Positions 52,607 through 56,443 of a DNA stretch of 64,000 bases are shown here, piece after piece. Within the stretch, counting starts at the first letter, position 1, and every line of letters begins with the position of its first letter. Below the pieces are notes generated by a model. It did no database searches, was not told the origin of the DNA, and saw only the letters and a program-made list of their open reading frames with translations. Location: NCBI RefSeq assembly GCF_020715565.1, contig NZ_CP085839.1, positions 2,604,001 through 2,668,000 of the forward strand. Direction: 5' to 3'. Source of the stretch: Nocardioides sp. Kera G14 (GTDB lineage: Bacteria; Actinomycetota; Actinomycetes; Propionibacteriales; Nocardioidaceae). A program made the translations under genes and the position numbers.

Positions 52607-53401
52607 TCAGTCCCTGAGGATCGCGAGGAGACGCAGCAGATTCTGGTAGATCCAGATCAGGCTGACCGTCATCGCGAAGGCGGCACGCCACGACTCGCGC
52701 TCCGGCAGGCCGGCAGCGATGCCGCGCTCGACGAAGTCGAAGTCCATCACCAGCATGAAGATGCCGAGGACGAGTCCGGCGACGGCGGTCAGGAGACCGA
52801 GCGTGCCGAAGCCGAAGAGGCCGAGCGAGCTGCCGAAGAGGCTGAGCACGAGCTCCATCAGGGCCAGGCCGACCATGCCGAACATCGCGGCGGTGACGAT
52901 GGTGCGGAACTTGTTGCCGACCCGGATGTTGAAGAACTTGTACGCCGCGAGCGTGCCGGCGAAGGCGGCGAAGGTGCCGATCACCGCGCCGGAGATGACG
53001 CTGCCGCCGAACTGGGCATCCATGAGCTTGGACAGTGCGCCCATCGCGACGCCCTCGAGGGCGGCGAAGGCGAGCACCAGCACGGGGTTGATGACCCGGC
53101 TGAAGCTGTTGATCATCGAGAGTGCGAAGGCCCCGATGCCGCCGATCATCAGGGCCGCGTACAGCGGGCCGAGATCGGTGGTGAAGTCGTTGAGGTCGGG
53201 CGTGAGCACCCACGTGGCGAGGGCGGCGACGATGACCACGCCGACGGACAGCGCGGTGCGCTGCACGACGGAGTCGATCGTCATCAGGCCGCTGCCATAG
53301 GTCGTCTGCGGCTTCGTCATGACCGGGCCGTCGCCGAAACCGGCGTACGGGCGGCCGTTGAAGCCCTCGGAGCGGTTGAACACCGGGTTGTTGCTCTGCA
53401 T
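52607..53401 (-). CDS. Bax inhibitor-1/YccA family membrane protein
   Basis: A 264-residue protein with seven hydrophobic helices following a 60-residue hydrophilic N-terminus. The later helices and the charged end DFDFVERGIAAGLPERESWRAAFAMTVSLIWIYQNLLRLL are the actinobacterial BI-1/YccA pattern; the paired aspartates form a pH-sensitive calcium leak in related structures. It is convergent with the SGNH gene and divergent from the HNH gene. Physiological role unknown. Confidence 0.9.
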   Translation of the reverse strand: MQSNNPVFNRSEGFNGRPYAGFGDGPVMTKPQTTYGSGLMTIDSVVQRTALSVGVVIVAALATWVLTPDLNDFTTDLGPLYAALMIGGIGAFALSMINSFSRVINPVLVLAFAALEGVAMGALSKLMDAQFGGSVISGAVIGTFAAFAGTLAAYKFFNIRVGNKFRTIVTAAMFGMVGLALMELVLSLFGSSLGLFGFGTLGLLTAVAGLVLGIFMLVMDFDFVERGIAAGLPERESWRAAFAMTVSLIWIYQNLLRLLAILRD

Positions 53402-53490: not shown

Positions 53491-53973
53491 ATGCGTGATG
53501 CTGATGGCATGCGGAACCGCACGTGGACTGAACTTGACCTCGAGACTGCCGTACTCGCCTCATCGTCCTTGGCGCAGGTCATCGCGCGCCTCGGGCTCCG
53601 GGCAGCCGGCGGCAACTATGCCACCATCCGCAGAGCAATTACCGCCGCTGGATTGGATACGTCGCACTTCCGCGGCCAGGCATGGAGCAGGGGCCGCTCC
53701 CTCGGCCCGAGGCGACGACTCGAGGACTACCTCTCCAATCGCCACCGCGTCGGCTCACACCAACTGAGGCTGCGCCTCATCAGCGAAGGGGTCTTCGAGG
53801 CGAAGTGCAACCGCTGCGGCCTGACGGAGTGGCTAGGAAGGCCGATTGCGCTTGAGCTCGAACATCGTGATGGCAACCCCGACAACAATGCACTCGAGAA
53901 CCTCGAACTACTCTGTCCCAACTGCCACGCACAGACGAGCACCTACCGCGGCAGGAACATCAAGCGGGCGTAG
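53491..53973 (+). CDS. HNH endonuclease overlapping a tRNA gene
   Basis: A 160-residue protein of a family common in actinomycetes and their phages. The first 60 residues form an HTH-like DNA-binding part (SSLAQVIARLGLRAAGGNYATIRRAITAAGLDTSHFRG). The HNH nuclease follows: CNRCG, then LELEHRDGNPDNNALENLELLCPNCH, with two CxxC zinc pairs and the catalytic His (H125 region). GC content is lower than around it. The start may be the ATG at 53491 or at 53509. Its last codons and TAG stop (53971-53973) form the first ten bases of the tRNA gene that follows, so the two were acquired or maintained together. Confidence 0.85.
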   Translation: MRDADGMRNRTWTELDLETAVLASSSLAQVIARLGLRAAGGNYATIRRAITAAGLDTSHFRGQAWSRGRSLGPRRRLEDYLSNRHRVGSHQLRLRLISEGVFEAKCNRCGLTEWLGRPIALELEHRDGNPDNNALENLELLCPNCHAQTSTYRGRNIKRA

Positions 53974-54039
53974 GCCAACGGTGAGCCGGGGACCTTAAAA
54001 GTCCTGTCGAATTTGTGGGTTCGAATCCCATCGCCCGCA
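53964..54039 (+). tRNA. tRNA with UAA anticodon (Leu), short variable loop
   Basis: All arms fold. Acceptor GCGGGCG pairs perfectly with CGCCCGC (54032-54038). The D arm is GGC/GCC with a loop holding GG. The anticodon stem GGGAC/GTCCT (53989-53993, 54001-54005) closes the loop CTTAAAA, anticodon TAA. The variable region is only nine bases. The T arm GTGGG-TTCGAAT-CCCAT is canonical; the discriminator is A, then CC, and CCA is not encoded. A normal tRNA-Leu has a long variable arm (about 85 nt), so this 76-nt form is unusual. The 5' end lies inside the HNH gene. Confidence 0.82.
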
Positions 54040-54200
54040 CCTAGTGGGACCGCCGGAATTCGGCGCCGTCCAGGCCGACAGAAGCAGGCCAAGAGCGCGC
54101 GCACAGCGCCATCGAGACTCGCGCAGTTCGCGATCCACAGCGCTCAACAGTCCTAGCATTAGGATCGGCAATAAGGCGCGCAACTGGCGCGCAGCAGGCG

Positions 54201-54225: not shown

Positions 54226-54243
54226 TAGAGATGAGAGGTGCGC

Positions 54244-54654
54244 ATGACTTATGAACGCAACACCCTCCACGTCGATATGGCGGAGGTGTGGGAGAAGGCC
54301 TACAAGCAGGCACTCACAACGGCGCCGGGAGAACAAGCCGAGTACCTGTTGAGGACGATCGGCCCGCGCGTCGCGTCGGCCGCCCTCGGGCTTGCGGATG
54401 CGAGGCAACTGAAGGCATGGAGTCGGGGAGAGACCGTGCCCCGCGAGCACGCCGTTCTCGGTCGCTTGAGCCTCCTCTATCGGGTCGCGTATGCGATCGC
54501 CGAGACCCAAGGGGGCACTGTCGCGGCGCTGTTCCTTCGCTCGTCGAACCCACAGCTTGACGACGAGGTGCCACTGATGGTCCTTCGCAAGAGCGATTCA
54601 GAGGAAGTGCAGGGACGCCTGCTTGCTGCTACTCGGGCGTTCTTGGAGGGATGA
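54244..54654 (+). CDS. Xre/MbcA-type antitoxin of RES system
   Basis: A 136-residue protein with the pattern of antitoxins paired with RES toxins. It has a helical DNA-binding part (LLRTIGPRVASAALGLADARQLKAWSRGETVPRE) and a C-terminal region corresponding to the toxin-binding domain (TVAALFLRSSNPQLDDEVPLMVLR). It should neutralise the toxin and repress the operon. ATG at 54244 has GAGAGG seven bases upstream; the earlier ATG at 54238 is within that ribosome site. The RES gene starts one base after its stop. Confidence 0.82.
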   Translation: MTYERNTLHVDMAEVWEKAYKQALTTAPGEQAEYLLRTIGPRVASAALGLADARQLKAWSRGETVPREHAVLGRLSLLYRVAYAIAETQGGTVAALFLRSSNPQLDDEVPLMVLRKSDSEEVQGRLLAATRAFLEG

Positions 54655-54655
54655 G

Positions 54656-55378
54656 ATGCCGGAGGTTCAGGTCGTGGCGGCGTTGCCGCGGGAATTCCTC
54701 AGGGTTCATTGGAACCCCGCCGCCCTGAGGCGGCCCCCTTACGACCTGGACCCCGCTTCGATGTCTCGCTTCGACGATCCGCAGGGCAGCTTTTCAGTTC
54801 GATACCTAGCTACGACCCTGCGCGGGTGTCTGGTCGAGACGATGTCCCGGTTCCGCCCAGCCCCGGAGGTGGAGACGTTGCTCGCTGATGTTGGAGGCAT
54901 TGAAGAAGGGGACGAGGACCCGACCCGCGGTGTTGGGTTGTCCGAATGGCTAGCCGGACAGCAGGTCGGCCACTGCACCCTCCTCGGGGCAAAGCCAACA
55001 ATCATCGATGTAGACGCACCGGAGTCACTTGTTGCACTCGACAAGCACCCAGTGGTTCGCAACGCACTCGACCGCTCCAGACTTGGCAGCGCGGCGAATC
55101 CCGCGCGATTGGACTCAGGGGTGGTCAAGCTTGCCGGTCCCATCGGCAGACCGATCACACAGGCCGTTTCACGCGCCGTCTTCGAGTGGTACGACGATGT
55201 GGACGGACTGCGGTATGCATCGCGCCTGGACGGGAGCGAAACCTGCTGGGCGCTCTACGACAAAGTTCAAGTCGCCTTTCGTGTCGAAGCACTCAGCAGC
55301 GAAGTGGTGGAGCATCGCGACGCCGTTCGCTCCGTAGCGGCGCTGTACGAAATCGAACTTCCCGATCCTTGGATCTGA
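54656..55378 (+). CDS. RES domain NAD-degrading toxin
   Basis: A 240-residue RES toxin. RES toxins break down NAD and stop growth (established for MbcT, a phosphorolase, and others). The family residues are visible: Arg in FLRVHW (R16), Tyr in SVRYLA (Y50), Glu in LVETMSR (E61) and the later DGLRYASR with Ser. It is longer than the minimal RES domain but in the range of actinobacterial members. The start codon follows the antitoxin stop by one base, so translation is coupled. The gene is convergent with ppx/gppA, with a stem-loop between. Confidence 0.88.
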   Translation: MPEVQVVAALPREFLRVHWNPAALRRPPYDLDPASMSRFDDPQGSFSVRYLATTLRGCLVETMSRFRPAPEVETLLADVGGIEEGDEDPTRGVGLSEWLAGQQVGHCTLLGAKPTIIDVDAPESLVALDKHPVVRNALDRSRLGSAANPARLDSGVVKLAGPIGRPITQAVSRAVFEWYDDVDGLRYASRLDGSETCWALYDKVQVAFRVEALSSEVVEHRDAVRSVAALYEIELPDPWI

Positions 55379-55483: not shown

Positions 55484-56380
55484 TCAGGCTAGTGACCAGG
55501 CGATCCCGTCGAGGATGTCCGCCTCGGAGATCAGCAGCTCGTCCACGGGGGCGCGGCGGAGCATGCGGCTGAGGATCAGGCCGCCCGCCGCGATCACGTC
55601 GGCGCGACCGGGGTGCATCCACGGAAGCGTGAGCCGCTCGCTCACCGTCATCGCGACGAGCCGGTCGACGAGGGCATGCACCTCGCCGACGGGAAGCACC
55701 GCCTGGTCGATGGCCTCACGGTCGTACGCCGGCAGGTCGAGCACTCCAGCCGCGATGGTCGTGATCGTGCCGGCGACCCCGATGACACTCGCGGCCCCTG
55801 CTGCGGAGACCGGCGAGGCGTCGAGGGCGTCATCGATGTCGGCGACGCAGGCGGCGATCTCCTCCATCGTCGGAGGGTCGGAGCGCAGGTGCCGCTCGTG
55901 CTGGCGGACCGAGCCGATCTGCATGCTGAACGCGTCGTCGGCACCGTAGATCAGCTCGGTGGAGCCGCCGCCGATGTCGATGATCATCACCGGCTGGGCG
56001 GGCTGTGCCCGGAGGTTGCGGACGGCCCCGTCGAAGGCGAGCGCCGCCTCCTCGGTGCCGGCGACGACCTCGGGCTCGACGCCGAGACGCTCACGCACTC
56101 CGGCGGTGAAGACGTCGGCGTTGGCCGCGTCGCGCGTGGCGCTGGTGGCCACGAAGCGGATCCGTTCGGCGCCGTGGTCACGGATGAGGTCGGCGTACTC
56201 GTCGAGGGCGGTGAAGGCGCGCTTCAGCGCACCCTCGGAGATGACTCCGGACTGGTCGAGCCCCTCGCCGAGGCGGACCATGCGGGCCTCCTTGACCTCG
56301 ACGGTCAGGGCTCCGCCGTCAACACTGCCGACGAGGAGCTTGATCGTGTTGGTGCCGCAGTCGATCGCGGCGACCTTCAT
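55484..56380 (-). CDS. Ppx/GppA family phosphatase
   Basis: A 298-residue short exopolyphosphatase or guanosine pentaphosphatase of the sugar kinase/Hsp70 fold. ATP-site motifs are AIDCGTNTIKLLV near the N-terminus, FVATSATRDAAN, and DIGGGSTELI. It lacks the C-terminal HD-like domains of E. coli Ppx and matches the short actinobacterial Ppx1/2 form. ATG at 56380 is chosen over the upstream start at 56407. It is the end of the eno-ftsB-DUF501-ppx group. Confidence 0.92.
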   Translation of the reverse strand: MKVAAIDCGTNTIKLLVGSVDGGALTVEVKEARMVRLGEGLDQSGVISEGALKRAFTALDEYADLIRDHGAERIRFVATSATRDAANADVFTAGVRERLGVEPEVVAGTEEAALAFDGAVRNLRAQPAQPVMIIDIGGGSTELIYGADDAFSMQIGSVRQHERHLRSDPPTMEEIAACVADIDDALDASPVSAAGAASVIGVAGTITTIAAGVLDLPAYDREAIDQAVLPVGEVHALVDRLVAMTVSERLTLPWMHPGRADVIAAGGLILSRMLRRAPVDELLISEADILDGIAWSLA

Positions 56381-56443
56381 CCGGGGTCCCCGCCGATTCG
56401 GGAGCACAGCGAGCGAATCGGTGGGATGGTCAACGTGCCGCCC

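Follow-up and report, generated by a model that had tools for sequence, protein, structure and literature searches.

An HNH endonuclease gene that ends inside a tRNA-Leu(UAA) gene of Nocardioides: a probable homing endonuclease unit that may replace a host tRNA

Introduction

According to two reports, a free-standing homing endonuclease of the GIY-YIG class, SegB, is encoded in the interval between tRNA-Arg and tRNA-Ile of phage T4 (PMC2988022); SegB is widely associated with tRNA genes across phages and cuts within them (2026, PMC13096335); and free-standing homing endonucleases bias the inheritance of flanking DNA by co-conversion (PMC2988022, PMC13096335). The locus described here is an HNH endonuclease open reading frame (ORF) that ends inside a tRNA-Leu(UAA) gene of a Nocardioides chromosome. 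The original prediction for this locus held that no system of its form had been described, a claim that must be given up, as these reports make tRNA-linked SegB a precedent in kind. What the locus shares with SegB of phages T4 and T6, so described, is a free-standing nuclease gene tied to tRNA genes. What separates them is that SegB is a GIY-YIG enzyme of phage tRNA regions, whereas the enzyme studied here combines an HNH motif with a predicted helix-turn-helix (HTH)-like part on a bacterial chromosome, in a type of ORF that is linked to tRNA-Leu and ends inside the tRNA, with the host tRNA gene exchanged. Membership in the SegB family was ruled out by the HNH motif and a match to an HNH family, rather than a GIY-YIG family, in PHROG.

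Two further systems are useful for comparison. Group I introns of tRNA-Leu(UAA) and tRNA-fMet reportedly involve endonucleases of the anticodon region (Bonocora and Shub in 2001, going by the title), and the entire tRNA-Leu locus is said to undergo recombination (Rudi in 2002, likewise by title). The likeness lies in a nuclease aimed at the anticodon region, given that HNH relatives of the enzyme studied here sit in group I-like sequence at the anticodon of tRNA-Leu(UAA); the difference is that the tRNA of our locus is intron-free and the HNH lies outside it, with a different tRNA. With no intron present, an intron-encoded homing endonuclease was ruled out for this locus and is suggested only for relatives such as L253. 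Synthetic Cleave-and-Rescue drives pair a nuclease that attacks a host gene with a version of that gene that resists it. We predict a comparable pairing of nuclease and substitute copy here, although our unit is natural and bacterial and carries a tRNA instead of a protein gene. In the open-licence PMC literature, we found no description of HNH genes that end in bacterial tRNA genes, tRNA-Leu included.

The locus

The window is the whole 64,000-nucleotide stretch of DNA that was analysed, and it belongs to a genome of 3.47 Mb in a single contig. On its forward strand lies an HNH endonuclease ORF of 160 aa (53491..53973; PHROG 10822 type), for which alignment with homologues suggests translation from the second ATG (53509) and a protein of ~154 aa. 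The tRNA-Leu(UAA) gene on the same strand (53964..54041) is called tRNA-Leu(taa) by ARAGORN and scores 52.2 bits with Rfam RF00005 (gathering score, 29); neither program finds an intron in it. The 10 shared nucleotides (53964..53973, forward strand) are at once the final HNH codons with their stop and positions 1-10 of the tRNA, the stop TAG (53971-53973) being tRNA bases U8-A9-G10. An HNH ORF that ends inside a tRNA(UAA) and shares its stop with it, as was originally predicted, is thus borne out by ARAGORN and Rfam. The tRNA had also been called short; it has 78 nt, but this length is not unusual, the native genes of congeners having 74-77 nt (27 genes). Because the ORF abuts the 5' end of the tRNA, its stop is borrowed from tRNA bases 8-10. 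Strong conservation of these bases among tRNAs would account for the repeated appearance of an overlap of exactly 10 nt, and the overlap is probably set by U8-A9-G10 as the first stop rather than by a special fusion.

Within the ORF, a three-helix HTH-like N-terminal part is predicted from weak matches only (53530..53649, forward strand; residues 14-53), and an HNH nuclease domain with two C-x2-C pairs occupies 53740..53964 of the same strand (residues about 84-158). The window protein matches its PHROG HNH family at 4.9e-44 and stays under the cut-off of Pfam HNH_3 (20.5 vs 24.8 bits). A 40-member alignment that includes it has 13 invariant columns, among them HNH-type C, H and N residues; because these columns keep the expected residues, the nuclease looks intact. 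A homing-family nuclease motif together with a predicted DNA-binding part is the combination expected of free-standing homing endonucleases. In a 61-protein tree, the window HNH clusters with those of other Nocardioides and of Janibacter (100/95), the next neighbours of this clade being two viral HNHs (99/93), and five Gammaproteobacterial HNHs from split tRNAs join next (94/93, just below the star of the tool).

Two genes on the reverse strand are conserved flanks of the tRNA-Leu(UAA) locus: a Bax-inhibitor-1 family gene (BaxI; 52607..53401) and, on the opposite side, a Ppx/GppA phosphatase gene (Ppx; 55484..56407). On the 3' side of the tRNA there is also a small ORF (54241-54654) that is Xre-like by appearance and has no Pfam or NCBIfam match, directly followed by a RES-domain gene (54656-55378; E 1.2e-11); together, they are possibly a toxin-antitoxin pair.

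Exchange of the native tRNA

When the 215 genomes of the genus were searched for the HNH, 57 of them yielded a total of 69 match rows. In the best 30 of these rows, which are the genus loci examined, a tRNA lies near the HNH in all 30. By chance, ~2% of genes would lie within 500 nt of a tRNA (an arithmetic value from 45 tRNAs in 3.47 Mb), and the proximity of HNH and tRNA in the genus is therefore more than chance. Leu(UAG) is the tRNA in 16 of the 30 loci, 13-71 nt downstream of the HNH in 14 of the 16, and HNH-domain relatives adjoin Thr(UGU) in eight. The latter (L072-L075 and L077-L080) have a different, Cys-rich N-terminus, and one further locus of the 30 (L068, in G225) has its HNH relative within a tRNA array in which at least 20 genes are called. 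A close HNH, 65-100% identical, is found in 5 of the 215 genomes, that is, the window genome, N. luteus (G011), N. albidus (G060), G147 and Root240 (G157), and every one of the five has the identical 10-nt overlap with Leu(UAA).

What stands at this site where the HNH is missing? In all 12 HNH-less loci that were read (L195-L206), Ppx and BaxI enclose the native tRNA-Leu(UAA) gene, which in 10 of the 12 is preceded by an ACT-def gene pair. That pair is missing at the window locus, and the window genome has no clear copy of the neighbouring def, with partial matches of 43% and 35% elsewhere. In all five carriers, the HNH-tRNA cassette occupies the same Ppx-BaxI interval, in the native orientation in N. 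albidus and Root240 and inverted in the window genome, N. luteus and G147. The HNH-linked tRNAs are 94-100% identical to one another and 53-65% identical to the 27 native genes. In the window genome, the linked copy is the sole Leu(UAA) among 45 tRNA matches by Rfam and ARAGORN. By this census, a divergent gene copy is present and the original is absent, as would be expected of a cleave-and-rescue unit, and we infer that the divergent copy is functional. In the other four carriers, native-type Leu(UAA) is missing from its usual place and two patterns fail to match it, which is weaker than the Rfam census of the window genome because the first pattern matched only 125 of the 215 genomes.

Comparisons of close relatives delimit the exchange. 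Between G147 and G001, flanks that are 88% identical over 1069 and 1035 bp enclose 613 bp with an inverted HNH-tRNA in the former and 99 bp with the native tRNA in the latter. Between Root240 and G167, homology ends at the end of def and resumes within the T arm of the tRNA, so that ~508 bp in Root240, in direct orientation, stand against ~66 bp in G167. In both pairs, the exchange is confined to the tRNA and the HNH. N. albidus offers no pair as clean as these: it is homologous to G167 from the 3' end of the native tRNA onward, and ~1.5 kb separates that point from the cassette; N. luteus and G147 are close relatives and are not independent cases.

Janibacter, a genus of a different order, offers a similar picture. 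J. melonis and its HNH-less congener L331 share one flank of 1462 bp at 85% identity and another of 1136 bp at 78.5%; between them the J. melonis cassette is inverted, and the exchange takes in more than the tRNA (about 485 vs 692 bp). Over 78 nt, the linked tRNA of J. melonis does not differ from that of N. albidus, the 10-nt overlap is present in both Janibacter loci and in others, and both HNH-less genomes of the Janibacter search have a native-like tRNA gene. The HNH of J. limosus matches in two frames and looks frameshifted.

In total, these comparisons show that in Nocardioides and Janibacter the native tRNA was swapped for an HNH-tRNA cassette, inserted either way round. Occupied and empty alleles of one site in relatives, together with a sporadic distribution, are the pattern that homing would leave. 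The expectation of a small mobile cassette is upheld here, since HNH and tRNA act as one unit in replacing the native tRNA in both genera. The original prediction also named an ancestral tRNA, present in relatives without the HNH, as a finding that would count against it; the position of the tRNA is indeed ancestral, but the gene itself differs from the copy of the HNH-less relatives.

Relatives in other bacteria and in viruses

Across several bacterial phyla, and in phages as well, relatives of the window HNH overlap or adjoin genes for leucine tRNAs. In the genome collection, of which the best 80 of 84 loci were taken, a tRNA lies within 500 nt of the HNH in 74 of the 80 and a tRNA-Leu in 55 (29 UAA, 15 UAG and 11 CAA). 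No tRNA-Leu is called within that distance in 19 of the 74, or in 13 once six split ones are set aside, and other partners include Thr and Gln; in the Anaerolineae loci L305 and L307, for example, the HNH likewise adjoins tRNA-Thr(UGU). As for the remaining six of the 80, L254 has a tRNA just downstream by Rfam, L289 has Leu(UAG) at 566 nt, and no tRNA was found near the HNH in L260, L279, L284 and L319. It had been anticipated that tRNAs with varying anticodons would recur beside homologues, which they do (Leu with UAA, UAG and CAA; Thr, Gln and others), and the adverse outcome of homologues mostly without a tRNA was not found, most of those sampled having one. Most bacteria have the HNH on the 5' side of the tRNA, and in 28 of the 80 loci the ORF ends 1-60 nt inside a downstream tRNA on the same strand, by exactly 10 nt in 13 of them and by 15 nt in 7.

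Six loci of this collection are of a different kind. In L244-L248 and L253, which enter the tRNA-linked count solely through their Cys or Gly tRNAs, the 5' half of a tRNA-Leu(UAA) ends at the anticodon into group I-like sequence that holds the HNH. The orientation of the HNH relative to the split tRNA is antisense in L244-L248 and sense in L253, and a 3' half could be located in every locus but L246 (five of six). No split locus has an Rfam intron at the gathering score. In a relaxed search of L246, L248 and L253, Intron_gpI matches L253 at 26 bits (E 0.0068; gathering score, 50) and no intron matches L246 or L248.

IMG/VR holds 326 viral relatives, of which 80 were kept, and 60 distinct ones were counted after 20 with an identical protein had been dropped. 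A tRNA lies within 500 nt in 74 of the 80 (in 2 of the 80, the sequence stretch holds no tRNA), and within 100 nt for 41 of the 60 distinct HNHs; random stretches from these loci have one that near in 20% of cases, and the other 19 HNHs have none. In 37 of the 60, the HNH directly follows tRNA-Leu(UAA), and Leu(UAA) accounts for 40 of the 254 tRNAs of these loci in all. Most viral relatives thus have the HNH 3' of the tRNA. Given that it is 5' in most bacteria, the place of the HNH relative to its target is not fixed. Named phages illustrate the range: the HNH ends 10 nt inside tRNA-Glu in Gordonia phage GodonK, follows tRNA-Leu(taa) in Rhodococcus phage Francesca, ends 1 nt ahead of tRNA-Leu in Escherichia phage mistaenkt and 15 nt within a tRNA, of a type not given in the annotation, in Vibrio phage D69, and has tRNA-Glx and tRNA-Arg, not Leu, as neighbours in Pseudomonas phage vB_PaeS_B8. 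Some viral HNHs lie by tRNAs for Ser, Leu(UAA), Leu(UAG) or Leu(CAA) on the opposite strand (L142-L144, L153-L155, L183, L185 and L188), and some such opposite-strand relatives have a longer C-terminal tail.

The Hymenobacter sites

In Hymenobacter, 91 genomes were searched, 89 were pattern-matched and 86 were analysed (G272, G284 and G310 were left out). By rough rules, an HNH was called intact when the C-x2-CH motif stood in an open frame 135 codons long or longer and decayed when an HNH match lacked this; on these rules, the 86 genomes comprise 41 empty, 32 intact and 13 decayed sites. The gap between tRNA-Gly(GCC) and tRNA-Leu(UAA) is 56-194 nt at empty sites and 521-620 nt with an intact HNH. 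Here the HNH has been gained and lost beside a resident tRNA. The view that nuclease and tRNA must always move together is therefore not supported here, nor is it in viruses, where the HNH is mostly on the opposite side of the tRNA.

The resident tRNA is not always left as it was. The anticodon arm is of the common type at 40 of the 41 empty, 13 of the 32 intact and 8 of the 13 decayed sites, so that a changed arm accompanies 19 of 32 intact HNHs and 1 of 41 sites without one (Fisher p 3e-8, uncorrected for relatedness). In the altered arms, both sides of the stem change, and the arm label requires four changes on the HNH tree, two of them forced by well-supported branches. Recoding is not a general need because an unchanged arm adjoins 13 of the 32 intact HNHs and 8 of the 13 decayed ones.

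Proposed mechanism and alternatives

We consider it probable, on the strength of the sequence comparisons above, that the unit is a free-standing HNH homing endonuclease with a tRNA-Leu gene as its home and probable target, joined in the window to a divergent tRNA-Leu(UAA). Filled, empty and decayed sites, split-tRNA relatives and isoacceptor bias are marks of homing endonucleases; what is added to the known homing pattern is the exchange of the tRNA itself. In this model, DNA with the cassette would enter a cell, and the HNH would cut the native tRNA-Leu(UAA) gene. Repair from the incoming DNA, or its capture, would then swap the native tRNA for the cassette, whose own tRNA would be a poor target and would make up for the one lost. 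Inverted exchanges do not fit ordinary homologous homing; they suggest end-joining capture at the cut site, where the incoming tRNA would make good the loss. The shared stop would have a further consequence: given that the stop codon lies within the tRNA, RNase P processing would remove it from the transcript, so that processing and HNH translation would compete and one transcript could yield a mature tRNA or a full HNH message, not both.

Could the nuclease instead be a passive passenger, that is, a general free-standing nuclease tolerated beside insertion hot spots, with the foreign tRNA brought in by ordinary horizontal transfer? Insertions into tRNA genes are frequent, the 3' side of the window tRNA carries a RES-domain gene with its partner, gene content between the tRNA and BaxI varies in HNH-less genomes too, and the Janibacter exchange extends beyond the tRNA. 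We regard this as unlikely all the same. Integrases use the 3' end of tRNA genes, whereas the HNH abuts the 5' end in most bacteria, and no further copy of the tRNA 3' end was found elsewhere in the 64-kb window. A mere passenger would also sit poorly with the isoacceptor bias, Leu(UAA) being the nearest tRNA at 37 of 60 viral loci despite its small share of their tRNAs, and with the two Nocardioides pairs that exchange tRNA and HNH alone. More improbable still is a domesticated regulator, to which we give very little credence: an immobile HNH whose fusion couples the supply of tRNA-Leu(UAA) and the decoding of UUA, in a bldA-like manner, to nuclease expression. The stop inside the tRNA, which would set RNase P processing against full translation, could serve such coupling, and TTA codons are absent from the nine window genes counted; UUA is reported to serve as a rare, regulatory codon in Streptomyces (PMC4932002). 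Against this, the distribution is sporadic (5 of 215 genomes), divergent HNH sequences keep catalytic-type residues, and near-identical linked tRNAs occur in two genera, all of which a mobile element fits better.

The Hymenobacter arms raise the question of defence. That is, an altered tRNA might escape the tRNA-cutting nucleases of phages or rivals, with the HNH mobilising or amplifying it. Recoded anticodon arms do go with HNH presence, the named phages have such HNHs within tRNA arrays, and SegB is reported to amplify phage tRNAs that overcome tRNA-cutting defences (PMC13096335). However, most of the recoding takes the form of paired changes in the stem, and among the 32 HNH-bearing Hymenobacter genomes 13 are unchanged; we think a role in defence or counter-defence quite unlikely.

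Returning to the homing endonuclease, we speculate that the unit could go further and act as a bacterial cleave-and-rescue drive, a possibility that we take seriously while leaning against it. The HNH would destroy the native tRNA-Leu(UAA), the cut-resistant fused tRNA would take over decoding, and a unit of ~0.6 kb would replace the allele either way round and be hard to lose; relatives at Leu(UAG), Leu(CAA) and other tRNAs would have done the same or something simpler. Because TTA is absent from the nine counted genes, the cell may need the window tRNA very little, and rescue may not be required. If the proposal is right, bacterial chromosomal tRNA genes are targets of a widespread selfish nuclease family, and some replacements of tRNAs between species are driven rather than neutral, which would explain both the abrupt switches of tRNA-Leu type between close relatives and the recoded anticodon stems of Hymenobacter. 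Cleave-and-rescue inheritance would also gain a small natural model system, and one could test directly how intron-encoded and free-standing homing endonucleases on one target arose from each other.

Other leucine tRNAs of the genus

A second class of HNH in Nocardioides lies between an AhpC/TSA-family gene and tRNA-Leu(UAG) (L056-L071 and L421-L438); in HNH-less relatives, the AhpC/TSA-family gene is directly beside tRNA-Leu(UAG), with no HNH in the interval. The Leu(UAG) loop reads TTAGGA, with a shifted loop base, in 14 of 16 HNH-bearing genomes and in 6 of 71 listed genomes without the HNH, counts made by hand with 77 of the 215 genomes among those listed. In addition, the window genome and many congeners (L041 and L048) have short Leu(UAG), Leu(CAA) and Leu(UAA) tRNAs of 74-78 nt without a long variable arm. 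Other congeners have a long-armed Leu(UAG), and the short and long types alternate between species.
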